Assembly (NCBI GenBank): GCA_964036195.1
Contig: OZ038459.1
Coordinates: 4,027,206-4,091,205, forward strand
Origin: Sphaerolaimus hirsutus
Taxonomy: Eukaryota; Nematoda; Chromadorea; Monhysterida; Sphaerolaimidae
Direction of reading: 5' to 3'
DNA length: 64,000 bases
The position numbers and the translations under genes were made by a program. This document shows, one piece after another, positions 18,601-64,000 of this stretch. The notes below the pieces were generated by a model. It did no database searches. It saw nothing but the letters and a program-made list of their open reading frames with translations, and had not been told where the DNA came from. Position 1 is the first letter of the stretch, and every line of letters starts with the position of its first letter.

Positions 18601-21600
18601 TACCGGACATTTTACACGACCTTTGACACTTTGCATGATATTTGACATTTTACAGGCTCTGGGACTGCACCATGGGCGGATCGCATACTATGCAGTTTCC
18701 GGAAAAAAGCTCAATCATGACGTCATCATTAATTTTAAAAAAATTGTCCCAAATTTTCCAAACCAAAACCAGACAAATTTTACCCGTCGGGTGACTTTTA
18801 CACTCACTCCAGATTAGGGTTCAAACGATATATCGTATCGAATATCGGATATCGACCATTTTTTTATATCGAATATCGAATATCGATATCGAAAATTTTG
18901 AAAAAATATCGAATATCGATATCGAAAATTTTGAAAAAATATCGAATATCGATATCGAATATCGACCATTTTTTCGATATATCGAAGCTGTATTGTGTCC
19001 CCAAATTTACTTTTCATTTTCATTTTGAGATGGTTATGGTTGATCTGATGAGCTTATAGAATTGTATTTGATGAGTAAAAGTACAGTATTTATAATGTCA
19101 TTGTTGGTGGAGTGATAAATTTGAAGGCAGAAAACGCTGATATACTTTTTTGGCAACATGCCCTTAAGCAATTAGGTTAGGATGAACTGTAATATCTACC
19201 AATTGTTATTTGTCTGATACACTTTGATCCATCATGTTTTTCTTCCATTTTCTACCATTGAGTGATGTAAAGCTTGTTAAAATCATTTGTACCATTCACA
19301 TTTCAGTAAAGAGTTGATTAACAATGTGTGCAACCACATGAAAATACCAAAGCATATCACAATATCGAACATCGAAAATATCGAAATATCGAATATCGAA
19401 TATCGACCATTTTTCAATATCGAATATCGAATATCGATATCGAGGTTCCATATCGTATCGATATCGAATATCGAGTTTCAGAAAAAAATATCGAATATCG
19501 ATATCGAAAATTTTGAAAAAATATCGAATATCGAATATCGATATCGAAAAGTCATATCGTTTGAACCCTACTCCAGATGAGTATTGGAGGAATTGGCGCA
19601 ATTCCAAAAAAAGTATTTTGTAAAAATAAAAAATTATTTGAGTTTAAAATATATTTTTCTTCTTTTTTGGACAGTGGGGTAAGTTCGATCCCGCTACCCA
19701 AACTGCACGTTACGAAATCGCTAAGCCCCGCCGACCAACCGTACTAGCCCCATTAGGCGCGATCACAAAATTCTCCGGCGACACATCAACACAGTCTTTC
19801 CTATCCACCAACTTCCTATCTGCATACACGACCGCCTTGACGTAGGCGTGCTGCAGCCCGGTGTTCATGACGCGCACGCCGGACGCGTCGCTGGGCAACA
19901 GCTTGAGCACGTGCTGGTGCTTGTTCGCGCCTGGGTTGAGTGAGGGACAACGGGTTGGGTGTTGATGGTATGTTTAAGTAACTAGTTATGATTCTGGTCC
20001 TGAAGGTGTCACTAGTGTGCGATACGAGAGGTGCCGGTTCGGTTCCTGCTGGTGGCAGTGCATTTTTTGCACTTCTAGATGCTGGCTCGTTTGAAGGTAG
20101 CTTTTGGTGCAACAAGGGATCGATATATCAGCGTAGAGGGGTAACGTAAAATGCCAATATTTCAGGATGGGGTCAGCTTTTATTAAACACTACTTTTTAT
20201 TAAAAAATATTTTGACGGTTTTTACAACATACATGGCTGTCAGAAACGGAAAAAAATACGGACGATTCCTAATCTCATGTACCATAGAGCTCCATCACAA
20301 GTCTCAATTTTTCGCCCAAAACCACCCAAAATCCTCACCAGAACTCATCCTCTCGCCGCCATTCAGTCTCAAATTGGCCACGCCCCCTACTCCGCACAAT
20401 CTCACTCGATATTTCTGACTATTAGTTTCCAATCGAATCGAATTCGAGTAAACCGCGCACGCGGTCGGGTGGAATTCGACCGAAATCGGAATTTGATCGC
20501 CGGGACACATGAGCAGCTCTTGTTCCTCGGTGCCGCTGTCCGATTGGGGCAACTGGTTGGGGGGGGGGTATTTGAGTTGACCCGGTTTTGAGAGGAGTTT
20601 CGAATGGGCCCCTGCACACACTAGTTGACAAGTACACTGTCAACTGACAAATGTCAACTGGTTCATACACCAATCCAGTAGGGTTCAAGCGGGACCGCGG
20701 TCCCGGTAAATGGTTCGGCAAAATGTCGGTCCCGGTCCCGGTCCCGACCACCCAGTCCCGGTCCCGCTCCCGGTCCCGGAAGTTATTAGTGGTCCCGACA
20801 AGGGATGGAAAAAATGTCGTTTTTTCCATCCCTTCTACAAAATTTTTTCCCACGCTCCAAATATAGTCTCAAAGCCAAGAAATACAGATATACGAGACAA
20901 GCGGTAGTAATTTACGATGTTATTGATAGCATTCTAAGTGTTGATTTTGGCCAAAAAATCCGTTTATGATGACCCAGTCGCAGTCCCGGTCCCGACAAAT
21001 CCCAGTCCCGGTCCCGACAATTGAAAAATGCCAGTCCCGGTCCCGGTCCCGACACCCCAGTCCCGGTCCCGACATTAGAAAATTTTTGGTCCCGGTCCCG
21101 GTCCGGAAAACTGGTCCCGTTTGAACCCTACAATCCAGTCCACGAGCCGACGAACGACGTTCAAATGCAAAAGTGTTGAATCACGTTGTAAATGAGGCTG
21201 TAGTTTTGGAAAACATATTGCGGCATGTGCAATGTCGTAGGGTAGGCATCGCGGATATGTGTATGCAAAATTGCGCAGTGTCACTCGTCAGCGAGCTTTT
21301 AATTGGGATGGGAACCAGTTGACATTTAGTGTCATTAACTAGTGTGTGTGTGAGGCCATTAAAATGTCCAACTCATTAACCAACATTGAACCGCATTTGA
21401 GTTTACTGGAATTAGGTATTCAGCAACAGATTGACGGAACGTCGAAATCACCCATTCCAGTTAACTAAAATGCGTCTGAGGCTGATTGTTTAGTCTTCCA
21501 AATTCTTCAAATTACATTAATAAACTAGTATCTACAGGGACTCACCCCAAACCCTCTCTGGGGCTGCTGAATGAACGCCTTGAGCGAGAGCATTATATCC

Positions 21601-24600
21601 GTTTTGTGCAAAATGGTCACCTGCTGTTTCGTGTGCGAGTCGAGCGGCCGGCAGCCGAAAAATATCTTCGTTCGATTTGTCTGGAAATTTTTTGCGGGAA
21701 CTTTTTTGGAAGAATGCCAAAAGCTATATATTTATCTGTGATGTTCTATATTTATTTGACATTCGAACCTTATTTTCAGCCAGCAAAAAATCGGACAGCT
21801 TAAAAACGTCACAACACACTATTCGAAAATGGTGCGTCAAAGCACAAAAAGCCCTGCCAAAAGGGCGCATCAACTGGTGTCATCGTGACAATTTTTCGCA
21901 CTGAACTTTAACACTTTACCTGTAATTGTGTCTCGCCCACGCGTACACTTCCCACTGAACTGGCAGCGGAACATGCACTGTTTGTTCTCTGTCTCAAAGT
22001 GTTCACTGCCTCGCAGCTTGCACTTTTTGTAATTTTGGCAGGTTGCCAATTTTGTGCTGGGGCTTGATTTTCCATCAGGGCCGTATCCAGGGGGGGGGGC
22101 GGGGGGGGCTGCAGCCCCCCCCCCCTCCCGGGGCGAGACCAGAAAGTGACCGGAAAATGCGACTTTTTCAACGTCAGCGTAAAAAATTTTGCGCGCAGGC
22201 GCGCATTCTTCACCATACATAAAGGTATTATCATCTGATTTGCTCCATGTGGCCGCAAATCGTTGTAAATACACTCAATGTTGTGCTTTTTGCTGTTTTG
22301 TATGTATATTTACATACATATACAGCGTTCCATGGCGCTGACGCCAACGCCAATAGCGCCATGGCGTGGCGCCTACTAATGGCGCCAGCGCCATAGCGCC
22401 ATTCCGCCACTATTTAGCGAAAATTTTAGGGGGGGGGCTGAGCCCCCCCCCCTCGCCGGCCGCCGTAAACAAGCAGCCCCCCCCGCTCAAAAATCCTGGA
22501 TACGTCCCTGTTTTCCATGGTATTTTCAGAGGGCACTTTTTCGGTTTGTGGCACATTTTCCGGTGGCGTGCCATTTTTCTCAATTGCGTCGCGCTGGAAA
22601 ATAATGAATGGTTTAATTTGGTGTTATCACGCATGCCCACAAAAAGTACGGATCCTGATCAGTTTGATTTCAATCATACACGCACATCAAATTCAACGCA
22701 AACACGTTGGCAACTGATGTCAACTGCTTTCTATTTATGTCAACTCAGTTTTACTTGATATTTCGTAAGACCATTTCAAATGTGCATGACAAAATATAAA
22801 AAATATTAGTACATTGTTTCTATACCAGTTAACTAAAATCTTAATTAGGTGTCAACTGGTGCGCATTCCGAAATCCAATAATACCAACAATCTAGGGTTG
22901 GAAAAAAATCGATTTTTTTTAACGACCCCGATTTTTTTTTAAAAAAATCGATTTTTTTTAAAAAAAATCGCTGGAGTCAAAATAAGCCCTATTTTTCGTC
23001 TAAATAACCTGAGGGGGCTAAAAATGAACTTAAAAAGCCATTTAAAATCATATTCTGGTACTGTTATGTCCTATGTGTAAGTATAACTCCTGTAGGGCTT
23101 TGGAAAAGCTTGAAAAAATTATTTTCAATTCTAGAGGTAGATAATTTGTTATATTTGCACTGTGAATTAGATTTCATTGAACATTTGCAAATTTCTTGGT
23201 AGAAAATGCATGTTCTTACTGAGAACACTGCCTAAAACATTTTGGAAGTGAACATGAATGGCTTTGCATTGATTTTTGAGATATAATCACATCACAGAAC
23301 TGTGTATACTTCCCCTAATGATTCATAGTTTATGCTACACACATAAAAGCATACAGAAAAAGATGCTACATGACCAAATTTGGTGCATAAGCAGTGAAAA
23401 CATGAAATTAAGTTATTTTTTATCTGAAACTGCGCGCTTCCGCACAAAATTTTTGCATTTTACCTAGTGCTTAAGTACCAAAATTTTTGCCAGCGATTTT
23501 TTTTAAAAAAAATCGGTACAGGGGTTGCGATTTTTTTTAAAAAAAATCGCTTAAAAAAAATCGCTTGCCAACCCTACAACAATCAAATACAAAATTCCCG
23601 GCATACCTTCAAATTGGGAACTAAACCGGCGCGCGTACTCCGATCTCCGTGTATAGTTGACGGTAATGACACATCTCCAATAATTTCATCGTAATATGAA
23701 TCGGCAAAAGTGCGATTTCCGGTGGCGGGCGGCACATTTTCCGTTTCCACGGGTTTACTTTTTTCAATCGGCTTTTCATCGGGAACAGTTTTTTCGGACT
23801 CCGCCTTGTTCGCGGTTGGCGCCAAAACTGAAAAAAAGAATTTTTGGAAAAAAATTGAAGATTTATGAGAAATGATTAATGCGTTGTTAGAGAAAATATG
23901 GAATATAAATAGCATCGACCATTTTGACGACTGATTTTGCAATAGAAAATTTAGAAATTTATCAACGTGTCGGATGTCTGCGGCTCTCTGCTGAAAGGAC
24001 CCACATACACTAGTTGACATCAATATCAACTAAATTCGAATACATTTTGGTTAATTATGTGATTTCAACTATTAAAAATGTGATAGAGCATAGTTTATCT
24101 GATATAGTGACACATTGTTTCTGTTAAGTGTGATGCTTTAAAAAATTTGATTTCTTAAGTTGACAAGAATTTGTGATGTCAACTAGTGTGTGCCAAAATC
24201 CACAAGAGAAAAAACAAACCTCTCCTATTGGCATTGCACTGAACAGGGGAGGAAGTGCACTGGGGCGTAAACAAATGCTTATTTCTGCCGCGACTGACCG
24301 CCCCCAATCTGCTAGAATTCTCAGTGTTTTCCACATCCTTCGTTCGGTTCGCAAAAGACCGGGACCGGTTACGCTTTTGCATAGATTCATTTGCGCAGTC
24401 GACCTGGGGTCAATTCCGCAAGTTGAGAAGTTGAGTTGACAGTTTAGAAGTGAGAAGTTTGAAAGTTTTAGTTAACAATGAAGAGGGGTAAAATGGGTAA
24501 ATGGACTTTTTACTTCTCATTTTAATTTTTACTCTGGATTTCAATGCGGTGTTTAATTTTTTCCCCCAATTCGCTTCCTATTTTTTACACCTCACTTCCA

Positions 24601-27600
24601 AACCACATTCTTTCACTTCCCAACATGCGGAATTGGCACCTGGCCAGATCGACTTTTGTCCGAATTGACCGCCGCCAAAACACTATGCGCGTCGTTAATC
24701 GCCTTGGCCAATAGAGCGCCGCTGCTGTCCGACACGTTCTCCTTGTTCGCGTCGGGCGAGCTGTCGGAGCTGACCGACGGTTGGTCGGTGCCGAGCACCT
24801 GGTCAAAACGTTCCGCTAGCTGGCCGCTGGGCGATTTTGAGGCCGATTGGTTGGTATCTGAGAGGGAGATTGTATTGATGTAACCATGCACATTAGTACA
24901 CCAATGAGATTTTAGAAACATTTAAATCTGCATTTAACACATTTGAGTTCACCAGCAGTAGTTGACAGATTCCTGATTCTGGTAAACTCAAATGTGTTCA
25001 AAACATATTTATGAGTTCACGAAACTTCGGCGGTGTACTCACGTGCGCAGCACCGTTGTTCAATTTAATTCGTGATTTTTTACTGTGGCAGCGCAAACTA
25101 GAAAACCGTCAAAATTCGGCAAACTCATAAATTTACAAAGTGCCCCAGAGGAAAAAACTGTTCCAAATTTATCACATACCATTGCCACTTTTCCGGGCCA
25201 ACTTTTTTCGCGCAGAAAAAAGTGTCCTGTGCGGCGGCGAGGGGGGAACGGCCGCGGCGATAGATTTTTCGCCCCGCTGCACACCAGATTTTGGCGTCTC
25301 GCGGCCGCTGGACGTTGGACTGTTTGATGCCTGAAAATGGGGGTTGAACATTTTTATTCAGTGTGATTAAATAGGGGTGGGACGTATCCAGGATATTTGA
25401 GCGGGGGAGCTGCTTGTTTACGGAGCCTGGCGAACGGGGGGGCTCAAATTTTTTGCATTGCACCTTGCAACTGGTATCGAAAGTCGCATTTTACCGTGAT
25501 TTTCAGGTCTCAGCCCGGGAACGAGGGGGGTCAGCAGCCCCCCGCCCCCCCCCCCTGGATACGTCCTTGATTTCGGTATTAGTAATAAATAGTATCATTC
25601 TACCGCCAATATAAAGCAAACACAAAATTATATTCTATATATTATATTCTTCTGCTTTTGCATATATGCAAAATACGAAATATTGAAATATAATGTAAAC
25701 GCAAAACTGACACGCTGCGCGTTTGAATTTGAGTTAGCGGCGGCGGCGCGACTGCCCAGTCCAGAGTCAGTGAAGAAATTCACCGTACTGGCACGTGACC
25801 CATCGTAACCTGCGCAGAAATGTAGTTTTCCAAGAACCAAACAACTTTCGCAACTTATATCACATAAGTATCGAAATCGAAGAAAAAAATTTAATGTAAA
25901 ATATCTAATATTTATCGATATTACAACTCAACATTTCACAAAACTTTTCGCCTGAAAACCCATGATGAACTCAAAGATTGAATAATAAAAACATTAATCC
26001 CGGATCCAATCAAGGCGACATGACATGCCCACCAACGTAAGTTATGTCGCAAACAATAAATTATGAACGCACGGGAAAGGTCACTGGTTATGGTAACGTC
26101 TGGTTCTCCCTCGTCGCTGCCCCATTCATCAATGTAACTGGTAGTTGTTTTATCTGTAAGTTACATATAGGGACATAAGTTACAGTTTTTCAACTTCTTT
26201 ATTCAAAAAATGGCAGCCCATTACTTTTCTCATAGGTAGGTACCAGGTGCGCAATTCGATTCACATAAAAAAGTGCAAATCGAATTGCACACGCATAGTG
26301 ATGTAAAAAGCACCAGAACTGACATGGTGCTTTTCCGACACTCAGCGCCCAGCGCCAAAGAAAAATGGCGCCAGGCGCCAGAAGATTATGGCGCTTCTCA
26401 CTTTGGCGCTAGCACCACGCGCACCCACAAATAAAAAAGCGCCCTTACCGGAAAGTCGCTTTCTCGACATTGACGTGGAGTGCGGCACCGGCGACTTTAC
26501 TGCGGTTCCCCACGATGGCTGAAATGAATCGATCGTTTGGAGTTATCGACTTTCAAATGAAATGTATCAATCGTTTGTTTTTTGGAGTTATCGACTTTCA
26601 GAAGTAGAGGTCGCAAACGCAGATGCATTAGACTGTTCTGCATTCAAACGCATCAAAGACATTTTCCATTTAAAGAATAGTCTCCCCTGACCAACCCTAT
26701 CATCATTTCTGTTCGGCGGCCAGCTGCCCAAAGGACAAGATCGACCCTTCAATGCAGCGGACGCATCCAGAGCTGGAATTTTAAATCATTGTTTTTCAAT
26801 TTGAAAAAAAAAAATCAATTTTTTTAAAAATCTACCAACTAGGCGGGCTGCCATCCTTCGAAATCAACGATCTATTCGCGACCGAGCTGAAATCTTCAGC
26901 CCCGATGCGACTGGAGGTAAAATTGGGTTGGAAATCGACATTTTCCGGCAGCTCCAGGGCGTATACATCGTTGTGCGCTCGCTCTTCGTTGTCGATGAAA
27001 GACTCGTGCATCGAACCTAAGTTTTTAGGGAGTTATGTCCGCTGCTATTAGTATACTGATTAGTGATGTGAAAACGCCGGTTTTCTTACACGTGAGTAAT
27101 CAAAATCCTAATTTTTTTCAACTTTTTCAGCGTTTTTAAGCAGCAAATCGTTTTCATATACTAAAAAAATGAAAAGGTTATCGAATTTTTGTTTAACATC
27201 CTTAATGATAAGCAAAATGCTAGTTGATATGTAGATAAAGTTTGTTGGCTGTAAGCCAAGTGACAGGTTAATGAAGCGTATTTTTATTGATAAAATCACT
27301 TGTGGCATGTTTTACTTGTTACCGCCTCGCAATTAATTATTTACTCACTCAGCAATTTTATCGTCCGCTTAGTGAATATAATTCATACTTCTAAACGAAA
27401 CCCGCACTAAAAAAACTATAAAAAAAACTGACGAAAAGTCATTTCATTCATACTAGCTCCAAAGCCGAAATTTCCCCCGCCAAAATTCGACTGTTCAGCG
27501 ATCGATTTTGGCGGCGCGACCATTTCTGAATTTGCCGGCGGCAGCGAACAGGGTGGCCCATCGAAAGATGAACCAAAATTTGCATTTTTATTTTCTGGTA

Positions 27601-32095: not shown

Positions 32096-34794
32096 TCACC
32101 TCCAAGCAACGTCCGGCACAGGGTACATTTTTAAATCAAACGCGTCAAAATATCTATGAGAAACGGCCGCTTTTGCGGACATCCTTCTCGGGGGATCGTA
32201 GCACACCAAACTGAAAATTAAACTCAAAGCCGAGTGATCTTGAATATCCGGAACGATTTCCCTGTCGTCTTTGCGGCGCCATTTCGGGAATTTCGATTTG
32301 AAATCGGGCAAGGAATGCACACCGGGCGGCAGTCCCGTACCTTGTTATATGTCATGGAAAGTGTCAGATGTCATACAAAATTTCATGCAGATTTGACAAA
32401 TGTCATGAGAAACGAAAAAAATTCAGCGATACAATCTTTTATTTTTTATTTTGATTGACAGTTTGACATTTTACATGAGTTTTGACACTTTGCCTAACAT
32501 TTGACACTTTACAAGGCACTTTACAGGGTGCGGGACAGCCACCTGGCCACGTCGACTCGTCGGGCGTGCCGAGATTGCGGAAAATTCGGAAAAGTTGGTC
32601 GATTTCCGAGTCGCCATCGAAAAGCACCTTTTTGGTTAGCTGGGAATTGGGGGGAGCATTTGTAGTGTTGAACTTGGCACGACACGACTTTTCGATATTG
32701 GACATCGATATTCAACAGGAAAAAATGTCAATCTGAACCATACTGATCCAATTTCGACAAAACTCAAATAAAGGTACTACAAAAATAACAACATAAAAAC
32801 AAACCATTTCAGCAAAAATACACCCCAAACTCCACAAATCGACAGACGGAGTATAATAATTTGACCCCAGCAAAATCTCGGGCGCCCTGTACCACAAAGT
32901 TACAACTTCGTGAGTATAAGCTCTCATGGGTACATTATACTCCCTGGGGACACTCCCAGACCCTGTAAAATGCCCTGGAATATGTCAAATGTCATGCTAA
33001 GTGTCGAAAGTCATGTAAAATGCCCTGGAAAATATCTGTCTAAATGTCTAAAGTGTCTAATAAGTCTAAAAACAAGTTTTCATTTTACTGGGCATTTTTC
33101 ATGACTTTTGACACTTTTTATGACACTTGATATTTTACAGGGCATTTTACATGTCTTTAGACACTTTACATGTCTTTTGACATTTTACAAGGCATTTGAC
33201 AGGGTCTGGGAGTGGCACCGGGCGAGTCCAAAATCAGCCAATTTTATGCGTCCTTCTTGAGTGACGAGCAAATTTTGCGGCTTCAAATCTCTATGAACAA
33301 CGCGGTGCGCATGGCAATATGCCAAACCTTTGAGTAGCTGCCACATGAAACTCTGCAAGATTGGGGGGGGGGGGGAGTTATTTGAGGGGGAAACCATGAA
33401 ACAGAACCTAATTGAGGTGTCCAATTCTAGAAGTCGACAAGCCCAAAAAATGAAAATTTCGAGTTAGGCCCGGAAACGTCATCTGGGGCTAAGTCTGCAC
33501 ATTTTTTACAATTTTCCATAAATTTTTTGACTTCACATGCCCATGTGGCATAGTGTCAAATTTGGCATTTTTTGGGAAAAATGCAACAAAAAAACTGGGC
33601 AAGAAGTAGACAATTCCACTTAGTTTTGGGCTAAAAGTCGACAAGTCCATCCTCCGCATCCTTTTTATGGGGAAAAACGCAAGAAATGTGATAAGTCCAC
33701 TGTGGACACCGATTTCTTAAAGACGACAAGTCCATAATTTTCCCAAAAGGCAGCCTCGGCTTCCTCGGGAACAAAAACGTTCTCGCGTGCCGATTTTTTA
33801 TTAAAAAAGCCAGATTTTTTTAAAGCATTTGTAAAAATCAAGTACCATCCCTAACATAAACCAACTCTGACGAGTTCCGACGCCAGTCTCTGGTCGCCCA
33901 TGCGGTCGAAAAGAATCTTCAAATCCATGTCCAAATATTCGAAAACCATGTAAAGTCGATCTTTCACGTGTATAACATCCATTAGGCTGCAAAGTGCGTT
34001 CAAGTTGAGAAAGTGAGTATATTGCCACGATATGGACAAGAGTTTTTTATTAAAGTACGGGCCTTCAGTGGGTTGACAATTTTTCAAATTTACTCCTTAT
34101 TTTGGGTGGTTTACAAAATATGACATAACTCCCAAAATATTTACCAGCCGACAAAATTTAGGGATACAAAAATTGTAGACAAATGTCCGAGATAGCAAGC
34201 TTTGTCGCCCAAACATGGCGCTACCGGGCCAGCGCCAAACCTTAAAATGCGATTTTGAAAAATCGAAAAATCTGGATATGTCAACTTTTGGAATGAAAGT
34301 CCCCACATCAGTTGACAATGACATCGGGTGTCAACTGGGACGACTGGTTACATTCACGATTTAGTTGACCGTCACTAATAAATTTCTTTTCCATATAACC
34401 ACATGTGCGCTTAAAAATTGTTCCACACGACCCGTCAACTAAGATCTGAATTGACATGCAAACCAGCTGACACACTGCGTAACGCCATCAGGCACAAAAA
34501 AAACAAATTCATAAATGAAAAACTCACTCGACAACATTTGCATGACTCAGCGAGCGCAAAAGTACAATTTCCCGTAGAGCTGTACTAGGAATTCCTTCCG
34601 GATCCCTGCGCAGATATTTCCAATAAAAACAAATTTTCAAAAATGGCAAAGTGCCAAAAGTACAATTAAAAAACTGACGAGTCCAAAGCGATTTTTTTCA
34701 GCGCCACCATTTTTCCGCTGGTCAGATGACGCGCTTTGTAAACGACGCCATACGTTCCCTCACCAACTTTGTCGATTTTCTCGTAGCTATTCAT
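32096..34794 (-). CDS. Cyclin-dependent kinase (CDK1/2 group, CDK2-like), 7 exons
   Basis: Ser/Thr kinase that needs a cyclin partner and drives cell-cycle transitions. Exons in transcript order: 34794-34679, 34605-34528, 33986-33866, 33352-33219, 32943-32805, 32639-32543, 32322-32096; 303 residues. Key residues fall at human CDK2 numbers: GEGTYG with Thr14 and Tyr15, Lys33, Glu51 in the C-helix, HRDLKPQN with Asp127, DFG Asp145 and activation-loop Thr160 in [14 protein letters not shown]. That register supports the exon model. The C-helix reads PSTALRE rather than [16 protein letters not shown] favours CDK2/3 over CDK1 (YRSPEVLLG). Two introns are inverted-repeat elements (32944-33218 and 32323-32542). 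The last junction fits precise removal of an element with a GGTG duplication. A GT-AG alternative would insert TGLPPG after Gly229. Confidence 0.9.
32323..32542 (-). mobile_element. Family A introner: CDK intron 6, apparently not GT-AG
   Basis: A 220-bp insertion between Gly229 and Val230 codons. The ends (…CTGTCCCGCACCCTGTAAAG and GGTACGGGACTGCC…) are family A inverted repeats. GGTG is present on both sides (32540-32543, 32320-32323), like a 4-bp duplication. Precise removal gives [11 protein letters not shown], aligned residue for residue with human CDK2. The boundaries then are GT…CG or a shifted equivalent. An internal AG (AACAAG) offers a GT-AG alternative adding six residues. Confidence 0.6.
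32944..33218 (-). mobile_element. Family A introner: CDK intron 5
   Basis: A 275-bp intron starting GTGCCACTCCCAGACCCTG and ending CAGGGTCTGGGAGTGTCCCCAG on the coding strand. Inverted repeats start within a few bases of both splice sites, so the element is the intron. Inside are AAATGTCAT/TGACATTT motifs and inverted TTTTACAGGGCATTTTAC motifs typical of the family. Joining gives [18 protein letters not shown] with CDK2 numbering preserved. Confidence 0.8.
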
Positions 34795-36740
34795 TTTTTC
34801 CGATAAAATTTGAACGCCTTTATGGGGCCATTTCCGGTGCGCTTTTCTTTTTCTTTTTTCTGCGAAACCTCTGACAGGGGCATAAAAATAGCGACTGGAA
34901 ACGAGCCAAATCTTTATTCGCAGTAAGTATTTTTTATTTGGCTCAGTGCTAAGTGTGTGGTAAGTCTCACGCGTGCCGTAAATAAAGTTAAACCGCGCGC
35001 CATCGTATTATCACCTTGAAGAATAGGGATGATTACGGCTAAAGGGTCCATTCGACGTGAATAAAATGGACCCATTAAAAAAGTACGTTAACGCGAAATG
35101 CATAAAGATTTAGTTAAACGTGGATTTGACATGAATAGGTACATTGTTTTGCACATTTTAGAAAATTATCAGCGTTATAGTCCATGTCGGCCTGGAAATC
35201 TGATAGTACCGACTTTACTGAAAAGCGTGAACTTCACGTAAACTGCGAGAGAAAAAAGTGACAGTCGTCGCTCTTCCTACCCACTTCGATCATTTCCACT
35301 GCAATTTTTGCAGCTATTTCAATTCGTTCTTTGTGTTTTTGGTTTTTACGCACCCCATACATTTTTCTAAACTACATTTTCTGTACTCGCGTACTTTCAA
35401 AAAGTGCGCGTAAAGGTGAGTACAGGTATTTTTTCCGGAAGAAAGGAAAACGTATTCTCAGTAAACTCAGTACTCAAGTACCTATACGTATTTTTCGGGT
35501 AACCGTAAATCGGTACGTTTTAACAACCATGCACGTTTCAGACAGTTGGAGTTTCCCAGGTGAATACAAATTCGGTTGCACTATTGTACTCAATGATCGA
35601 GCGTATTAGATAATGTCAATTGTAAATGTAATGGAGTGAATAGTTGCCGTTTGGGTGGAGATGAGATTAATTGTGATCGATTGTGATGCTTTTCTGTTGT
35701 ATTCAATTTATCTACCTATGTGTGTTTAGTGTTTACTGGCTAATTCTGGATATGATTCTGCACTTTGTCAAGTGACAGTGAAGTTTCAAGTTCTCTGAAA
35801 ATGTGTGACATCGGGAATATTTCCCGGGGGCAGATTGTGTACAGGCTATTCTTTTCTAAAAAATTCCAAAAACAAATAAATTATTCACTTTCACAATTAT
35901 TTTCTGAGATTTTCTGAGATTTTTCCAATATAAATCTGCCGAGATTTTTTCAATGCTAGTCACGATGAATGACACTTTGCTACAACTTGAAACCTTAGTT
36001 GTAACTTGACAAATGGTGGAATTGTCCCTATGTAGCATAAAGTGTATCTAAGTGTGGTTTATTAAATACTGTTTATAATATTATTGTTTGTCAATTGTAT
36101 TTAATTTGTGAGTGGTTTAATACATCAGCATAGCTTTCTATTTACCATAAAGATTTGAATAAAAACCCCTTATAAAACAACCCTTTGAATAACTCCCGCC
36201 TGTCAGTTAATTGATGACAAACTAACTCACCCCTCAAATAACTGCCCCTCTCTGTTATAATTCACACCCACTTAATTACACACTAGTTTTCCACATGAAA
36301 ATGAATTGCCGAACTGATCATGCATGGTTACACACTAGCTTATAATAATGATGTACCCCAGTGTTACTAGCGGGATTCTTTCTGGACCTTCGGTTTGGTT
36401 TTTGTTTGACAGTATTCTGCACTTCAATCTGGTAGAAACTGGAATCGACCCAAGAGTCATGCCCTGCCTTTTTCTTAGCTTTATCAATGATTTGGGAGGA
36501 CGGGTGTTGAGTGCAGCAAATAGTACCCTTCTAGGGTGTCAAAAACAATTTTTTTGGAAAACAGAAAGGAAAAAATTTCACTCAATGAAAAGTGAAAAAG
36601 AAAGGTAAAAAAGTTTTATGGTGGAAAAAAATTTCAGCTGCTGGAAAACGTAACACAAAATGTAAAAATTTGTCCTTCGGGAAACAGACACGGAAAGTTG
36701 ACTCCGTAGTGTCTATGAAAACTGATTGGTATAAATTACT
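34795..36740. other. Upstream region of the CDK gene, no gene seen
   Basis: AT-rich, with short frames only. Probably contains the promoter and 5' untranslated region of the CDK gene on the minus strand. Around 36180-36250 are decayed traces of the C-rich foldback MITEs. Confidence 0.4.
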
Positions 36741-36745
36741 GGAGG

Positions 36746-37558
36746 CACTCCCAGACACTGTAAAGTGTCGAAGACCCTGTAAAATGTCATGTGTCATGTA
36801 AAAGACCCTGTGAGAAGTGTCAAATGTCATGTGTCATGTAAAAGGCCCTGTAAGATGTCATGTGTCATGTAAAAGACCCTGTAAAGTGTCACGTGTATCC
36901 AAATACATTTTTCCCTATCCAAATCTTATGTTTTGGATCCAAATCTTATTTTTGGATTTGGATACAAAAACATAAGACTTGGATTCAATCCAATAAGATT
37001 TGGATACACATGACACTTTACAGGGTCTTTTACATGACATTTGATGCATACCGTATTTCCTCGAAATACCCCCCCCTTGAAATACCCCCCCCTCGTTTGA
37101 CCCCCCCCCTCTCGAGACCACTATGAAACAATCACCCCCCCCCTCGAAATACCCCCCCCCCAAATTGAGTGTAAAGGGAACGTACATGACAATAACTGTA
37201 GTTTGTGTTCAGTGTACTGCAGAACACACGTTAAAACAATGTCGGTGTCACGTTAGAACAGTGTACATACCATCTACATACTAATATTAGTCTACAGAAC
37301 CTTATAAATGGCGGTTTTTGTTGCATTTTTCGACGTCTGCGTACGTTTCAGACGACAACTTCGTACTTGGTTTTCAAAAATTTTCTTGTGAAACAATCAC
37401 CCCCCCCCTCGAAATACCCCCCCCCCTCGTTTAACCCCCCCCCTCTCGGGACCACTATGAAACAATCACCCCCCGGGGGGTATTTCGAGGAAATACGGTA
37501 AAGGGTCTTTTACATGACACATGACACTTTACAGGGTATTTTACAGAGACGGGGAGTG
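36746..37558. mobile_element. Family A element with a nested TA-flanked MITE
   Basis: Outer ends CACTCCCAGACACTGTAAAG and TTTTACAGAGACGGGGAGTG are family A inverted repeats. The tips are AGTAATTTATACC-side CTGGAGG and GGCACCAGG, so on the minus strand they would read as GT…AG. Inside, 37049-37500 is a complete foldback MITE that inserted later. No exons were found beside it. Confidence 0.65.
37049..37500. mobile_element. TA-flanked foldback MITE (ACCGTATTTCCTCG family)
   Basis: Perfect-looking terminal repeats TACCGTATTTCCTCGAAATA and TATTTCGAGGAAATACGGTA with TA at both tips. C-rich arms of TCGAAATACCCCC repeats and a GACGTCTGCGTACG core. Nested in the family A element above. Confidence 0.85.
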
Positions 37559-37727
37559 GCACCAGGCATTTTTCTCATCCACCATCAGTCTACTCCCTTA
37601 AACTCATCGAAAGCATTGGCTTATTAGATCTTGTAGTTGTGTTTCCATTCCATGTGCTTTCCTACACGCTGTGTATCCAAATGATGAGCCGTGTTATCCA
37701 CCCGCATCAATTCGCTCTCTATCTATT

Positions 37728-49259: not shown

Positions 49260-49708
49260 TACCGTATTTCCTCGAAATACCCCCCCCCTCGAAATACCCC
49301 CCCCCTCGAAATACCCCCCCTCAAAATGGACACTATGAACTTATAAACCCCCCCCTCGAAATACCCCCCCCCAAATTTAGTGTATAGAGAACGTAAATGA
49401 CAAAGGCTGCGGTTTGTCATCCCGACAATGCAGAACACACGTTAAAAACGATGACTCTGTTATGTGAGAACAGTGTTTGTACGTCTACACACTTATAAAT
49501 GTCTTTAGAGTCTTATAAATGGCGATTTTTGTTGCATTTTTCGACGTCTGCGTACGTTTCAGACGACATTTTAGTTCTGGGATTTCAAAAAATTTCTGGC
49601 GAAATAATAAACCCCCCCCTCGAAATACCCCCCCCTCGTTTAACCCCCCCTCAAAATTCTCACTCTGAAACAATAAACCCCCCGGGGGTATTTCGAGGAA
49701 ATACGGTA
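49260..49708. mobile_element. TA-flanked foldback MITE (ACCGTATTTCCTCG family)
   Basis: Ends TACCGTATTTCCTCGAAATA and TTTCGAGGAAATACGGTA, TA tips, CCTCGAAATACCCCCC arrays and a GACGTCTGCGTACG core. Complete copy. Confidence 0.85.
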
Positions 49709-50387: not shown

Positions 50388-50675
50388 TGGGCCCAAAATA
50401 GATTAGAAGTTGTTCTATAATGTTCTTGAATCACGTTTAGACTTTTTTCATTTCAATTTTCGACTGTTTCACGCGACGTAAACCCACACGTAAACCAGTC
50501 GCGTGAGGCCGAATTCAAACTATAAAAAACTCAAACTAGTTGACAACCGATATTTTCAAAACCTTTAAATATGTTTTATTAAACCGCATTTAAGTTTATG
50601 AAATGAGGGGTCAATCAACTATTTGACTGTTGACTCTAATAAAAAAAAAACTATTATGGCCAACTCAAATGTGTT

Positions 50676-51117
50676 TACCGTATTTCCTCGAAATACCCCC
50701 CGGGGGGTGATTGTTTCATAGTGGTCCCGAGAGGGGGGGGGGTTAAACGAGGGGGGGGGGGTATTTCGAGGGGGGGGGGTTATTGTTTCACAAGAAAATT
50801 TTTGTCGTCTGAAACGTACGCAGACGTCGAAAAATGCAACAAAAACCGCCATTTATAAGGTTCTGTAGACTAATATTAGTATGTAGATGGTATGTACACT
50901 GTTCTAACGTGACACCGACATTGTTTTAACGTGTGTTCTGCAGTACACTGAACACAAACTACAGTTATTGTCATGTACGTTCCCTTTACACTCAATTTGG
51001 GGGGGGTATTTCGAGGGGGGGGGGTGATTGTTTCATAGTGGTCTCGAGAGGGGGGGGGGTCAAACGAGGGGGGGGGGGGTATTTCAAGGGGGGGGGGTAT
51101 TTCGAGGAAATACGGTA
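50676..51117. mobile_element. TA-flanked foldback MITE (ACCGTATTTCCTCG family)
   Basis: Ends TACCGTATTTCCTCGAAATA and TTCGAGGAAATACGGTA with TA tips. The interior is nearly the reverse complement of 37049-37500, including GTCGAAAAATGCAACAAAAA. Confidence 0.85.
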
Positions 51118-51228
51118 AATCAGATTTATCATTCTTGTAAATGTCGGTTGTCAACTAAATATTTAGTGTGCGTAGGGTCAAACTCATTCTCGCTCCAAAA
51201 TCCAAAAAACTATACCCCCCCCCCGCAG

Positions 51229-54307: not shown

Positions 54308-57300
54308 CCGCCATCGTTGTCCAGCTTCGCGCCGACCACGCCGGACTCGAACCGGTCGCCGCCGCAGCACTTCACCATGGGCGGGGAATCGCCGCAACAA
54401 TCCATGAACCAGTTGAGGCAGGCGGCGGGCGTGTTCGCGAGGTTGCCGCCCGAGATGATGTGCACCATTCTGTCGTATTTGTCGTTTGATGTCATCTCTA
54501 AGATTAGACCGGTGAGCGGTGGTTTTATTTAGGTATAGTATCCTCCAATAACACCCGCTTGAATAACACGCTGCCTTGAATACCCCACCCCATAGGCAGA
54601 TTGAGAGAAAATACCCCCCCTTGGATACTCCCCCCTCTGTGATATATGAAAAGGAGGTTGGGTTTATTTAAAAACAAACAAACAATGAAGTCAGACAGAT
54701 CAAATAAAGCTATGCCTTGGCTGAAAATACAGTGCAGTGTGTGAAACAAAAAATACAAAACAATATTAGCCTACGGCAGCGACGGCAGATAAATACCGTA
54801 TTTGCTTGAATAATCCCATTGGGGGATTATTATTTCGTCAGACATTTTTGAGGGGGGAACTATTCAAGGGGGGAATTATTCAAGGGGGGTGGGAATTATT
54901 ATTTCATCAAAAATTTCAAGAATTTTTCTATACTCTCCTTTCACGAAATATGCTTAATAAACACAATAACGTGCCATTTTTGTTAAAATTAGCTATAAAA
55001 AGTTAATCAAACTTTTTAAGGGGGGATTATTCAAGAAGGAATTATTATTTCCTCACTCGTGTTTCAGGGGGGGATTATCCGATGGGGGATTTATTCAAGG
55101 GGGAACTATTCAAGCAAATACGGTAATGTAATTCTTAGGATAAATAACTCCCCCTCAAATACTCCTACTAAAATAAGGAGACATCGCTCTAGATGCAGAC
55201 ATGCCGTATACAAAAAAGCACTGTAAAGTTGATGCCGGGGTAGTCGAACGAAACCAGAATGAGCGCTAAAAAACTCCCCTGGGGTCTTATTCGAGGATAT
55301 ATAGAAGTTTTTATATATTTTGAATGATTTTGTAGTGATGAATTTCCAGTCCACCAAATTGAATTCCGCGCCAAAACAAAAAAAGCCAACCCATAAAAAT
55401 CCAACATGCAGACGTGCGCCTACATGAACGCCGTGTCCGGCGACCTCTTAAACCAGGGCCTGACCAAATTAGAGCGCTGGCAGCAGACGCTCACTGGACA
55501 AGTGCGCGCGCGCATGCCCAAAAGGGAATCTGAGAGGAGGGCACATAGATTGTCCAGATTTGTGGACATGTTGACGGCTATGGAAACTAGGTATGGGGGA
55601 GTTTTTCGAGGGATTTTCTGGGGTTAATTGTGAAAGTGGAGAAAAAACATTTTTGCGAGAAGTAAAATGAGGAGTAAAAAGTTTACTTAACTTTCAACTT
55701 TTTTGTGTTTATTTTCAATCGGTTTCAGTTTGTGACGGGGAAATGTGTTTTTGAGATGAAAATCTCGCTCGAGACACGAACCGTAAAGATATGACTGGAG
55801 GCAGCAATGGTTGAAAATAAGTGTTAACTCGTTCGGTGAACTGAAGTGATCATGATTTCGAGCGCTTTTGCACTTTGAAGAACGGAAACACTTTTTCCCG
55901 TTATTATTACTCCTCAAAAGGTACATCTATCATCAGAATGGCGCTTTCGGTGTTTGTCTCTGGCACTTTGCCAACACAACACAAAAAATCCATAAACTCC
56001 GCCCACCCCGCAGAATCAATCTGATGCGCATAACCTATGGCAAATTCATTGAATTGGGTTTGTGCTGTTTCATTCCGGGAAAGTTTCTGGACGAAGGTTT
56101 CGCCAGGCTAACAGAAATTGAGGGGTGGCTCAAAAATGGAATCGCACCCCCGAGGCCCCTGCAGGTGCTTCAAGAATGGAGGGATATTTCCAGGTTCAGC
56201 GCTGGCAATTTATTCAGTATGAGGATGTAAAGCAGTGTAAATTCTGTGCGTGAATTGAGAAAAAAATATTTTTTGAGGTGAAGTGTGGAAACAATAACAT
56301 CCAGAGAAAAAAAACGGAAAGCCACCGCGCTCTAAATTTTTGGTTCTTTTTCATATGGTGCCATTTGAGGTTAGCTCTATGCGTTTAGAAACCGATGGTT
56401 CCTTCACACACTAGTTTGATTTTTTTCTACCAAAATCTCAAAATGTCTTAGAAACTAGTCACCTACTTTTTTTCAACCTGAATCCCCATCCTCAAATAAA
56501 ACCCCCACCAAAAATTGAAACACACAGCATGGCAATGGAATATTTCGACGAGCAAATTGCCCCACATTTGCGTCGCAAAGCCGCGGCGCTTTCGGAAAAA
56601 ATGGAAAATACTTTCAACGCGGACGCGGCTGCTTTGGCACGTTCGAGCAGCCCGAAAAACTCTCAAATTTGCTCCACTTCCAGGTGCCAGTGCACTTTGA
56701 TCAATGGTGAGGTGTTTTTGTTGGATATGGGGATAAACATTTGGGGATGTGGAAATTACCTAGGTTAAATAGTTTGAGAGTGATAGGTGTACAGGATTTG
56801 TAAGGAAGAGAATTGAGAAAGCCAGAAGACAGCCTTATTCAGTCTATTTGAATTCGTCAATGGTTTTTATTATTTTTGCAACATCTTTCCATCCAATACA
56901 TAGGGAGAGTTATTCAAAGGGGGGTGTCATTTGTCCGCATCCGGCCAACAGGGGGGGAATTATTCGAGGAGAGGCATTTTTTAAGGGGTCTAATTCAAAG
57001 ATATAGATGTGGTATTTTCACTCAATTAACCCCCTTTTATTAAAATGTTGACTCTAGAGGTTCTGATATTCGGTAGAATTTCGTCAATTTTGAAACCTCC
57101 CCCCTCAAATACCCCCCCCCCAGAATCCCACGACTCGCGCGCCGGAATTCTAGCAGCGGCCATCCAAAATTGCCAGTGCCATAAAGCGCAAAACCACGCG
57201 CATAGGAGGTCGGCGTCCAGTTGCAGGCAGTGCGAATTGGACGCTGCCAGGGGGGTTGAGGGGGGTTGCGCTGATGAGGGACTTGGCAATGGGTTAGATG

Positions 57301-60300
57301 GGTGTTTCGGGTTGCGGTTTTTTTTTTTTTGGGGGGGGGGGGTTGGGGGTGGGGGTTGGGGGTGGGTTGTGAGGACTTAAACTCGATTCGATTGATGACC
57401 TGAAGCCAAAAACTCGAGCCAAAACGCTTGGCTCGACCCGATGGTTGAAAATTATCTCTGTGTGACATGACTTTTGCCTAGTTCACTGACTCAACACCTT
57501 GACTAAACCAATATTTTTTGAAGCTGTGACTCAAACTCGTGACTTGTGTGGAGAATCCTGAAAATATTTTGAAGTGAAGTCATAAAAAATCCATCGCAAA
57601 ACCTCAAAAAAGTGACCACTGTCCACCCAAACTTCACTCAGACAATCCACAAACTCCACGGGTGGCGGGCTGCACAGATCGCGCGGCGGCGGCGGCAGTT
57701 CGTCCAAACTGCAACAGCCGCGCGGCTCAGACCCCAGTCGCAGCCAGGTGCCAGTCCCAGACCCTGTAAAATGCCCTGTAAAATGTCAAGTGTCATGCAA
57801 AGTGACAAAAGTCATGTAAAATGCCCTGCAAAATGGCAACCGAGTTGCCATTTTGCAGGGCATTTTACATGACTTTTGACACTTTGCTTGACATTTGACG
57901 TTTTACAAGGCATTTTACAGGGTTTAGGACTGCTCCCAGGCGGAAGCGATGCTCCGCGCGCAGTTGCATATACTCGCTCCGAAGAAACTCCGCAATGTGA
58001 GGTCAGAGTTGATCAAGTTGCACGCGAAATATAGGTGTGTGGTTGCGGAATTTTGGATTTTTTTTTGCATTTTGAGTTTTTGGTGTGAATATGTGTTTAA
58101 TTTGCGTGTAGATAACGCGCACCGTGTTGAATGCGCGATGGAAAGCATGCCCTTATTAAAAAAAACGTAAAAAAAATTATTTTATAATCTGCTTAATCTG
58201 AAAATAACGATGGGAAAATAGAATCTGTATCCGCTCAATACTACACTTATCATGACATTTGACACTTGACACGTGACTTCACACTTTACGGGGTGCGGGA
58301 CTGGAGGGGGGTTACGGAAGGGCCACACCCCTCCACCCCAATGCCCAAAATTGCCACCCCCTCAAATACCCCCCCCACCCAGAGACCAAGCCACGGCCCT
58401 AATGGTGTATAAAAAAGAACTCTATGCCATGCGGGCTACAAACCGTCGGGTAGAGTCCCGCATGCGGGACCAATTTAGACGGGCCAGTGCACAGGAGAAG
58501 TTACTTGAAGCCCACCACAGGCAATTTGATGAGCATAATAGGAAAATGAAAACGGTTAGGGGGGTTTGAGGGGGTAAGAGTGACTGATTTTTGGGACTAG
58601 ATTTGATTAGGAAGGCAGGCACGCTCGACAAATGCAAATGTATCTACCTAATGTTAATACTAATATATTATTATTTTAATTGATAAAATTGGATGAAACT
58701 ATTCATCGAAATGTTTTCCACACCATTCGAAGACCGCTATTCGATGGGCCATGGCAATTGACCAAATTTGGCAATTTTCTTTATAAAAGACGATGTCATA
58801 ATGACACGCTATATAACTTTTACTTATAACGTCAAAATTGGTTTTTCTTCGCCATTTGAGAAATAGGCACCTGGCAGTGTCTTTTCGTTACGATAAGTCC
58901 GACAAACTATACAACAATCCCTTTAACTTGATCGCAGATGTCTCGCAAAATGGCCGACTACGACACGCGCATGGCAAAAATGCACGACAGTTTGCAGCAG
59001 GTGAGCGGTGTTGCCAAGCTGGTGCCAGTCCCAGACCCTATGTAATGTCATGTGTCATGTAAAATACTCTGTAAAATGTCATGTGTCATGTAAAAGACTC
59101 TGTAAATGTCATGTGTCATGTAAAAGACCCTGAAAAAGGTCATGTGCAATGTAAAGGACCATGTAAAAGGTCATGTGCCATGTAAAAGATCCTGTAAAAT
59201 GTCACGTGTCATGTAAACAACCCTGTAAAATGTCATGTGCAATGTAAAATACCCTGTAAATGTCATGTGTCATGTAAAAGACCCTGTAAAATGTGATGTG
59301 TAGTGTAAAGACCCTGTAAAATGTCATGTGCAATGTAAAATACCCTGTAAATGTCATGTGTCATGTGAAAGACCCTGTAAACTTTCATGTGTGATGTAAA
59401 AACCCTGTGAAATTTCATGTGTCATGTAAGACCTGCAAAATTTCATGTGTCATGTAAAAGACCCTGTAAAATGTCATGTGCAATGTAAAGTACCCCGTAA
59501 ATGACATGTGTCATGTAAAATAAACCCTATAAAATTTCATGTGTGATGTAAAAAAACGTGCAAACTTTCATGTGTTATGTAAGACCCTGCAAAATTTCAT
59601 GTGTCATGTAAAAGATGCTGTATTTAAAATGTCATATGTGATGTGAAAAACCCTGCAAAATTTCATGTGTGTAAAATACCCTGTAAAATGTCATGTGTCA
59701 TGTAAGATGCTGGGCTTCAAGCAACTTCTCCTCCATCATATTAGACCCTGTATTTAAAATGTCATGTGTGATGTGAAAAACCCTGCAAAATTTTATGTGT
59801 GTAAAAGACCCTGTAAAATGTCATGTGTCATGTGGAAGACCCTGTAAAATGTCATGTTGTCTCATGTGAAAGACCCTGTAAAATGTCATGTGCAATCTAA
59901 AAGACCATGTAAAGTATTACGTGTCATCTAAAATACCCTTTAAAATGTTGTGTGTCCTGCAAAAGACCCTGTGAAGTATCATGTGTCCTGTAAAAGACCC
60001 TGTAAAGTGCCATGTGTCGGGTATAAGACCCTGCAAAATTTCATGTATCATGTAAAAGACCCTGTAAAATGTCATGGGCAATGTTAAAGACTCAGCAAAG
60101 TTTCTAAAGTTTATTCTATAGTATCCAAATCTTAATTTTTTATATTTCAATCTGACATTTTGTAGTATTTGATTGAAATATTGTAGTAACTCAATCAAAT
60201 ACTACAATTTGGATTTCATTTGACCTGCTGATCTATAGGCTGATGTAGGCACTTTTTCGTGAACAACATCTAAAACGTTTCAAATCCACACCAAACTTCC

Positions 60301-63300: not shown

Positions 63301-64000
63301 CGCGCGCGCCGACACCACAGGAGGAGGCACCATCACGTGCACAAGGTTTGTCGGTGGTTTGATTGAGTGATTAGTATTTAAAAAACTGGCGATTTTGGGA
63401 AAATATAATTTAATAGAGTTTCAGAAAGTCTCTCAAACGAAAGCTATAATAAAATCTCTCTTGAAAAACCTTGGAAGATAGGTATATACAAATAACATCT
63501 ATAGTCGAGCTAGAGTATTTTTTGAGAAATTACCGAAAATCCCCTGGCCCAGACCCCTGTAAAGTGCCCTGTCAAGTGTCACGCAAACTATCAAAAATCA
63601 TGTCAACTCGAACTTGATAAAAAAACTTGATATTTTGCAGAATCTGATCGTGGCATCTGCGGGGTTGTGGCAATTACCAACTAACCAACAGAAAGAAACC
63701 CCTCCCAAATCCTCAATCCATCCAAAACCATGCAATAACCCATTTTCAGCGCGCATTGTGCAGCGGCAGCCTGACGGCGGCAATAAACAACCAAATTGGT
63801 CAAACTCAAATCCGCCGCGCGTCACACCGACGCACGAGGAGTTCCGCGGAAGCTGCCGCCGCGGCACATAGAAGGGAGACTAGACTGCACATGTGAGTGT
63901 GGGTGCTACTGTTGCAGTCCCGGAGCCTGTAAAATGCCCTGTAAAATGTAAAATGTCAAGTGTCAAAAGTCATGTAAAATGCCCGGTAAAATGGCAAACG
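54308..64000 (+). CDS. FBXO28: FBXO28-like F-box protein, continues beyond the window
   Basis: An F-box protein, expected to be a substrate receptor of an SCF ubiquitin ligase, probably nuclear. Exons: 54308-54511 (first ATG in it 54377), 55412-55590, 56014-56193, 56528-56683, 57642-57747, 57940-58034, 58383-58554, 58938-59000, 60341-60545, 61656-61773, 63108-63345, 63750-63892; phases all agree, about 596 residues so far and no stop. The F-box reads LPPEMMCTILSYLSFDVIS. The FBXO28 core follows: PKRESERRAHRLSR, LCCFIPGK, then EWRDISSMAMEYFDEQI across a splice junction. A coiled coil follows (residues about 310-420). After it comes an extension absent from vertebrate FBXO28: Gly/Ser/Asn-rich, a His-Gly run (HVHGHGDHGHGDHVH), then a basic His/Arg-rich part. 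The intron 57748-57939 is a family A element. The frame is open upstream of 54377 to the acceptor at 54307, so an earlier exon may hold the true start. Confidence 0.88.
54794..55125. mobile_element. TA-flanked foldback MITE, TTGCTTGAATAAT variant
   Basis: Ends TACCGTATTTGCTTGAATAA and TTCAAGCAAATACGGTA are inverted copies with TA tips. Arms hold GGGGGGATTATTCAAG repeats instead of the TATTTCGAGG of the main family. It lies in the first intron of the FBXO28-like gene. Confidence 0.8.
57124..57250 (+). CDS. Optional extra exon of the FBXO28-like gene
   Basis: A C-tract acceptor (ACCCCCCCCCCAG at 57123) precedes a Cys-rich frame (SHDSRAGILAAAIQNCQCHK…, …RSASSCRQCELDAAR). It joins in phase if the previous exon ends at the strong donor G|GTGAGG (56706) rather than at 56683. 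Its own end would then be CCAG|GGGGGT, which is not a GT donor. Without it, exon 56683 joins 57642 directly in phase. It may be alternative, non-canonically spliced or not an exon. Confidence 0.25.
57748..57939 (+). mobile_element. Family A introner: whole intron of the FBXO28-like gene
   Basis: A 192-bp intron beginning GTGCCAGTCCCAGACCCTG and ending CAGGGTTTAGGACTGCTCCCAG. Inverted repeats reach within a few bases of both splice sites. The interior is a tight hairpin: AAATGGCAACCGAGTTGCCATTT lies near its centre. The flanking exons join in phase 0 (…SDPSRSQ-AEAMLRAQLH), as in the homologous region of FBXO28. Confidence 0.82.
59022..60110. repeat. Tandem array derived from family A (about 1.1 kb)
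   Basis: Starts with the family A left end GTGCCAGTCCCAGACCCTAT, then runs through roughly 30 units of about 30-35 bp with core ATGTCATGTGTCATGTAAAAG and CCCTGTAAA. Units vary by small changes (GTGCAATG, TTTCATGTGTGATG). One internal segment (59620-59700) is repeated at 59750-59830. No right-hand terminal repeat is seen. It lies in the FBXO28-like intron 59001-60340. Confidence 0.8.
60831..61260. mobile_element. TA-flanked foldback MITE, TATTACCTCG variant
   Basis: Ends TACCGTATTACCTCGAATTA and TATTTCGAGGTAATACGGTA. Both tips carry the same change (TTACC/GGTAA) relative to the main family. TA tips, C-rich arms and a CTACGTCTGCGTA core. Lies in an FBXO28-like intron. Confidence 0.82.
62018..62860. 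mobile_element. hAT-like element with AACGTAAACGTA motif arrays
   Basis: An 843-bp element with ends CAGAGTTGTTCAAATACC and TTCCAACTCTG and a perfect 8-bp duplication CTTCAAAG (62010-62017, 62861-62868). Same terminal and GGGTATTT layout as 11404-12184 but with a different subterminal motif. In an FBXO28-like intron. Confidence 0.88.
63541..63610. repeat. Family A fragment
   Basis: CTGGCCCAGACCCCTGTAAAG followed by GTGCCCTGTCAAGTGTCA matches the left end of family A. No right end before the exon at 63750. Confidence 0.5.
63915..64000. mobile_element. Left end of a family A element, cut by the window edge
   Basis: CAGTCCCGGAGCCTGTAAAATG with the family's GCCCTGTAAAATGT motifs runs to the end of the window. 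It lies in the intron that begins at GTGAGT 63893, so it is inside the intron rather than defining it. Confidence 0.6.

Follow-up and report, generated by a model that had tools for sequence, protein, structure and literature searches.

The source of new introns is a long-standing question, to which introners are an answer for some protists and fungi; in animals, introner activity is a known process but has seldom been described. The locus described here raises it for an animal, as the limits of an inverted-repeat element are also the limits of an intron in two unrelated genes on opposite strands. Did the elements create these introns by inserting into exons, or did they come to fill them in some other way? 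The window (the whole stretch of 64,000 nucleotides that was analyzed) is animal DNA with choline-transporter-like (+), Cep192-domain (-), CDK2-like (-) and FBXO28 (+) genes. A sequence-only reading had proposed that a family of such elements, family A, comprises introners, that is, transposons that bring both splice sites with them.

Elements that occupy entire introns

Four elements bear on this question, one of them as a candidate.

57748..57939, plus strand: family A element forming the entire FBXO28 intron; 192 nt, phase 0, GT..AG
32944..33218, minus strand: family A element forming the entire intron 4 of the CDK2-like gene; 275 nt, phase 2, GT..AG
32323..32542, minus strand: family A element forming the entire intron 6 of the same CDK2-like gene; 220 nt, phase 1; the precise join would be GT..CG
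24404..24639, minus strand: candidate entire intron; 236 nt, GT..AG; interior different from family A, ends similar

The FBXO28 intron and CDK intron 4 lie where the sequence-only reading had placed them, and the family A match spans both, with element limits equal to intron limits. CDK intron 6, a second element intron in the same gene, was absent from that reading. The donor sides of the FBXO28 intron and CDK intron 4 are GTGCCAGTCCCAGACCCTG and GTGCCACTCCCAGACCCTG, and the acceptor sides are CAGGGTTTAGGACTGCTCCCAG and CAGGGTCTGGGAGTGTCCCCAG; the ends first described are broadly right, except that the acceptor motif given as TGGGA reads TAGGA in FBXO28. The inverted repeats claimed for the two introns were found, with arms of 98 nt at 89% (57743-57941) and 94 nt at 85% (32943-33222). 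The FBXO28 intron matches CDK intron 4 at 87% over bases 1-87, the match starting at base 1, and at 86% over 88 nt on the 3' side, up to 2-3 bases from the end. Terminal inverted repeats (TIRs) are present in all four elements, and 17 to 21 of the 24 terminal positions pair.

Family A ends are of the CCNGGTGCCANT type, with inverted partners. A 20-base terminal pattern, allowed at most 3 mismatches, occurs 17 times in the window, compared with an expectation of 0.01 from shuffles; a tandem array at 59-60 kb accounts for 7 of these matches. As an entire intron, family A occurs three times in the window, in two genes, and the shared sequence reaches the splice boundaries. All three intron phases are represented (0 in FBXO28; 2 and 1 in CDK). 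If unspliced, every one of the four elements introduces in-frame stops, and three of them shift the frame (phase 0 is assumed for the 24-kb candidate).

The family has further copies inside gene introns and outside delimited genes, as had been stated.

36738..37566, minus strand: family A copy outside any delimited gene, with ends CCTGG|TGCCACTCCC .. GGGAGTGCCTCCAG|T and a nested TACCGTATTTCCTCG hairpin
18541..18669, minus strand: family A copy within a larger stretch adjoining the Cep192 matches; not an entire intron
59018..60091, plus strand: family A left end (GCTGG|TGCCAGTCCC) that passes into a tandem array of 31-bp units, apparently within an FBXO28 intron (exons read by eye)
63915..64000, plus strand: left part of family A, ending at the window edge
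3319..3424, plus strand: degenerate family A-like copy beside choline-transporter-like exons (read by eye); no CCNGG flank

We rejected an entire-intron reading of the copy at 18541-18669, as it has no clear left exon and its right end falls ~40 nt short of the nearest acceptor. The array at 59018-60091 consists of ~34 copies of the 31-bp repeat, which resemble family A subterminal units.

The interrupted genes

32096..34794, minus strand: CDK2-like gene with seven exons (34679-34794, 34528-34605, 33866-33986, 33219-33352, 32805-32943, 32543-32639 and 32096-32322, stop included)
55514..58034, plus strand: FBXO28, delimited exons (55514-55590, 56014-56193, 56528-56683, 57678-57747 and 57940-58034)

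Joined without the elements, the CDK exons leave 303 codons open and align to human CDK2 over residues 1-255 with zero gaps. The alignment covers both element joins and extends downstream of both insertions, and the earlier statement that CDK2 residue numbers stay in register across the join is correct. Intron 4 interrupts codon 150 at LAR|EYN, and intron 6 interrupts codon 229 at the WPG/VHS boundary. If unspliced, the two elements (275 and 220 nt) bring in-frame stops and a change of frame.

Motif spacing was compared among 120 listed CDK homologues of the 6,780 found at E 1e-80. The distance from DFGLAR to THEVVT is 9 residues in 117 of the 120 (motif missing in 3) and that from WPG to PDY is 4 residues in 113 (motif missing in 7); precise joins give 9 and 4, in what is a check on spacing and not a blind test, the homologues having been retrieved with the joined protein as query. 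The listed homologues are mostly 59-63% identical; they span many animals and include some plants, and none is a near relative. Judged by this spacing, the precise joins would leave mRNA length the same as before insertion.

The gene first called FBXO28-like has homologues named FBXO28 (best E value, 1.1e-26), which bears out its identity. Its join at 57747|57940 is in phase 0, has GT..AG ends and keeps the frame. Because this join sits in a variable, unalignable linker, the splice call there is made from GT-AG ends and reading phase, and its support is weaker than that for the CDK joins.

CCNGG flanks

57744..57748 (left) and 57936..57940 (right), plus strand: flanks of the FBXO28 element, CCAGG and CCAGG; identical, the right 5-mer supplying the acceptor AG|G
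CDK intron 4, minus strand: left flank CCCGG, right flank CCAGG
CDK intron 6, minus strand: left flank CCAGG, right flank CCCGG
24-kb candidate, minus strand: left flank CCAGG, right flank CCAGG

When the four elements are aligned on their TIRs, all eight ends abut CCNGG, including those of the 24-kb candidate, for which the search patterns contained CCNGG and CCAG, so that its flank does not count as independent evidence. Before the motif was noticed, the three family A introns had already been found, and six of six of their ends abut CCNGG. The distance from TIR to splice junction is constant across the four copies, and CCNGG flanks each copy at either end. The two flanking 5-mers are identical in two of the four copies and differ in the center base alone in the other two; the copy at 36738-37566 has CCTGG and CCAGT.

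It is the flanking CCNGG that contains the donor G and the acceptor AG; the element contributes the T and the remainder of the donor side. The introner interpretation offered by the sequence-only reading holds, so far as sequence can tell, for the TIR-transposon anatomy and for the restored CDK frame but not for the idea that the element carries both splice sites whole. In the CDK gene, the left CC belongs to conserved Ala-Arg and Pro codons and is therefore host exon sequence. Both CDK insertions may have hit CCCGG; the right copy at intron 4 would later have become CCAGG, providing AG, and the left copy at intron 6 would have changed to a better donor context while the right copy stayed CCCGG.

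Other left ends deviate from the motif (GCTGG at 59018, CATGG at 18669, ACTGT at 63915 and ATCAG at the degenerate copy at 3319), and the probable target preference, judged from few copies, is for this reason best stated as C-N-G-G, with CCNGG favored. Ordinary splice sites likewise have CAG|G as their consensus, and CCNGG may therefore partly reflect splice constraint and is not wholly separable from target choice. A CCNGG target would account for how insertions come to lie where a splice context already exists.

In a scan of all sixteen 5-bp palindromes for inverted repeats flanked by them (at least 17 of 24 positions pairing), raw counts reached 24 for TGNCA, with 9 for ACNGT, 8 for AANTT and 5 for CCNGG. 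The five CCNGG pairs are the four introns and one TACCGTATTTCCTCG palindrome. The scan alone does not single out CCNGG, because several other palindromes count higher in this repeat-rich window. The hAT superfamily, considered for the CAGGG-like inner ends, was set aside: hAT target site duplications (TSDs) are 8 bp long, and the common flank CCNGG is 5 bp.

Origin of the element-filled introns

The elements are very probably introners, namely, short nonautonomous TIR DNA transposons that gave rise to new introns by insertion into exons. This reading is favored because the same element forms an entire intron in two unrelated genes, because the CDK2 alignment is gapless at both CDK joins, and because the copy outside delimited genes (36738-37566) has the same kind of ends. 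The CDK motif spacing, the in-frame stops of the unspliced elements, the CCNGG flanks and the fold z scores are also in its favor. It is weakened because only two of the four flanking repeats are perfect and because the donors fit GTRAGT, the usual donor consensus, poorly after position +3. The overlap of CCNGG with the splice consensus, the palindrome counts, a branch-site-like motif inside the predicted stem, the paired donor of CDK intron 6 and the deviating left ends likewise weigh against it.

The anatomy of the elements, their flanks, the restoration of the CDK frame and the predicted hairpins are seen directly in the window. In the mechanism that we propose, a putative transposase would recognize TGCCANT-CC-type ends and insert the element at CCNGG, with 5 bp duplicated, to give the product CCNG|G-TGCC...(3 nt)-CCNG|G. 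The duplicated target would then be the source of the donor G and the acceptor AG, and the element that of the donor T and the following bases. In the pre-mRNA, the arms would pair as a long hairpin that draws the splice sites together near its foot, and the spliceosome would excise the whole segment that the two CCNG|G points enclose, so that the mRNA regains its preinsertion sequence. We infer transposition, the origin of the flanks by duplication, splicing and whatever role the hairpin may have.

Family A copies that lie in or near genes without filling an intron (18541-18669, 59018-60091, 63915-64000 and 3319-3424) are what might be expected if the elements had landed in existing introns and the leftover intron sequence had later been lost, leaving the element to fill the intron. 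We consider this improbable. It requires trimming of both ends to the identical element base in separate genes, and it has to contend with a junction-TIR offset that is constant across the four copies, each flanked by CCNGG at either end, and with the CDK left CC being exon sequence (Ala-Arg and Pro codons). Still less likely is spread as an intron, via reverse splicing or RNA copying, with the inverted repeats being secondary. Long TIRs, the repeated 5-mer in the flanks and a similar-ended copy outside delimited genes all speak against such a route, although whole-intron copies with conserved splice ends would suit it and at least some introner families reported by Gozashti et al. (2022; PMC9860276) lack a TIR or TSD. 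That the CDK gene is a dead copy with insertions that were never spliced is the least credible explanation, since the one CDK element without AG at the precise join (GT..CG) would agree with it but 303 open codons and an alignment to CDK2 residues 1-255 that is gapless even downstream of both insertions would not.

Predicted folding and the join at CDK intron 6

The introner reading includes a hairpin in the pre-mRNA, and the predicted RNA fold of the FBXO28 element has an energy of -141.4 kcal/mol, with a z score of -22.3 versus shuffles. The corresponding z scores are -16.9 for CDK intron 4, -7.4 for CDK intron 6 and -5.1 for the 24-kb candidate, versus -0.8 for a comparison intron that is not an element, CDK intron 5. 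The folds predicted for the FBXO28 element, CDK intron 4 and the 24-kb candidate leave the donor GU unpaired at the base of the stem, together with the 6-7 nt that immediately precede the exon; in the fold of CDK intron 6, the donor GU takes part in base pairing. Both the FBXO28 and the CDK intron 4 elements contain TTTAC, which resembles a branch site and has its A at -23. This motif lies inside the predicted stem, a position that would count against easy recognition.

The precise join at CDK intron 6 lacks an AG (GT..CG), and no split of the shared bases yields GT..AG while keeping the conserved protein length. Either this precise join is used or splicing is canonical, at an inner AAG|GT that would add six residues (TGLPPG) in frame; from the sequence, we hold the two about equally likely. 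Use of the inner site would preserve GT..AG and leave the frame open, and introners that add codons are reported for Aureococcus in PMC9860276, but extra residues are found in 0 of the 113 listed homologues having the WPG..PDY motif.

A wider proposal, speculative and on balance unlikely, is that the transposase targets CCNGG, in effect a proto-splice site, and that several unrelated hairpins thereby become introns whose removal is not strictly AG dependent, the GT..CG CDK copy being excised precisely since the hairpin and the flanking repeat define its ends. The AG-less CDK copy would test how much intron structure can assist an animal spliceosome.

A candidate intron at 24.4 kb

The candidate at 24404-24639, which the sequence-only reading had not included, was recovered by a two-end pattern search, with CCAG|GTGCCAATTCC at 24639 (-) and GGAATTGACCCCAG| at 24404 (-), each with 2 mismatches; for the second end pattern alone, 3.7 chance matches are expected. 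Its interior is unrelated to family A and has no match elsewhere in the window. The reading frame is open on both sides, next to CCAGG flanks. Pfam reported nothing in 22-32 kb, and no PDB match was obtained for the 24.4-kb gene; Cep192 domains, one of them below the curated cutoff, were reported by Pfam only at ~19.7-20.5 kb, on the same strand as the candidate. Because the flanking exons are without homology confirmation and have weak codon scores, which antisense frames equal, the intron is treated as a candidate only.

Relationship to known elements

Miniature elements of the MITE type are short and have long TIRs and copies in and out of genes. The window elements share these traits, being short, with no coding capacity seen, with long TIRs and with copies both inside and outside genes; ordinary MITEs are not known to form gene introns themselves. 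Huff and colleagues are said to have described introners of the DNA-transposon type in 2016, and the window elements appear to fit the introner kind.

The survey of Gozashti et al. (2022; PMC9860276) reports 5 to more than 2,000 copies per introner family and, within animals and land plants combined, introners from no more than two groups, both of them animals. As in its DNA-transposon introners, introns of unrelated genes in the window are similar up to both splice ends and have TIRs and short flanking repeats; splice sites derived partly from the duplication, and the unchanged mRNA length of most families there, would be further likenesses. The window elements differ from most introners of the survey in their animal host, in a CCNGG flank that holds the donor G and the acceptor AG, and in the occurrence of a second, unrelated interior with similar ends.

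Introner elements of Amoebophrya, as described in PMC7789003, likewise form an inverted-repeat hairpin, and short direct repeats (3-5 nt) span their exon-intron boundaries. They form one subset of noncanonical introns, whereas three of the four window elements are GT..AG and one would be GT..CG. The larvacean Fritillaria is also an animal, and the corresponding paper (PMC13326754) names weak-splice-site introner transposons as a possible source of divergent splice sites. According to the same source, <10% of F. borealis introns are GT/AG; GT..AG introns make up five of six in the CDK gene and all four delimited in FBXO28, and a Fritillaria-type system, in which most introns are not GT/AG, was set aside. 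A bdelloid rotifer gene with an introner-like intron is described in PMC10597677, where Oikopleura dioica is cited as an early case; the rotifer example, which has been compared to the fungal type, is a single long intron in one gene, and the text available describes neither TIRs nor a flanking repeat for it.

Possible novelty may lie in the host lineage, in the CCNGG flank carrying the donor G and acceptor AG, and in two unrelated interiors with similar ends. Hairpin transposons that fill whole introns in an animal, including a pair within a single cell-cycle kinase gene, would open intron gain to metazoan study.

A possible relic and other repeats in the window

FBXO28 intron 56684-57677 opens with CCAG|GTGCCAGT, a 12-base match to the left end of the elements; three such left-end matches (at most 1 mismatch) were seen versus 0.15 expected. 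An inverted partner was sought by eye at the other end of this intron, and none was convincing. This may be an element intron that is old and has decayed.

Pfam scans of parts of the window reported no transposase. A 665-codon open reading frame at 43715-45712 (-), named gag-like by eye, had no homologue at E 1e-5 among 7,997 candidates scored. Searched against viral contigs, three patterns of 19-25 bases from element termini or interiors had 0 matches; a 15-base pattern had matches in 65 stretches, none similar to the four elements (blastn, E 1e-3), which were taken as chance. The FBXO28 element was without a match in phage records.

More fragments resembling the interior of family A lie at 2203-2280, 16150-16240, 29693-29806, 42588-42660 and 63548-63581. 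A large inverted arrangement of 17-bp tandem repeats, with arms of 170 nt at 92%, occupies 42123-42875 and encloses, at 42552-42654, a hairpin formed by subterminal sequence of family A. Palindromic repeats with TACCGTATTTCCTCGA ends are located at 37049-37500, 49260-49708 and 50674-51119, the first of them nested in a family A copy.
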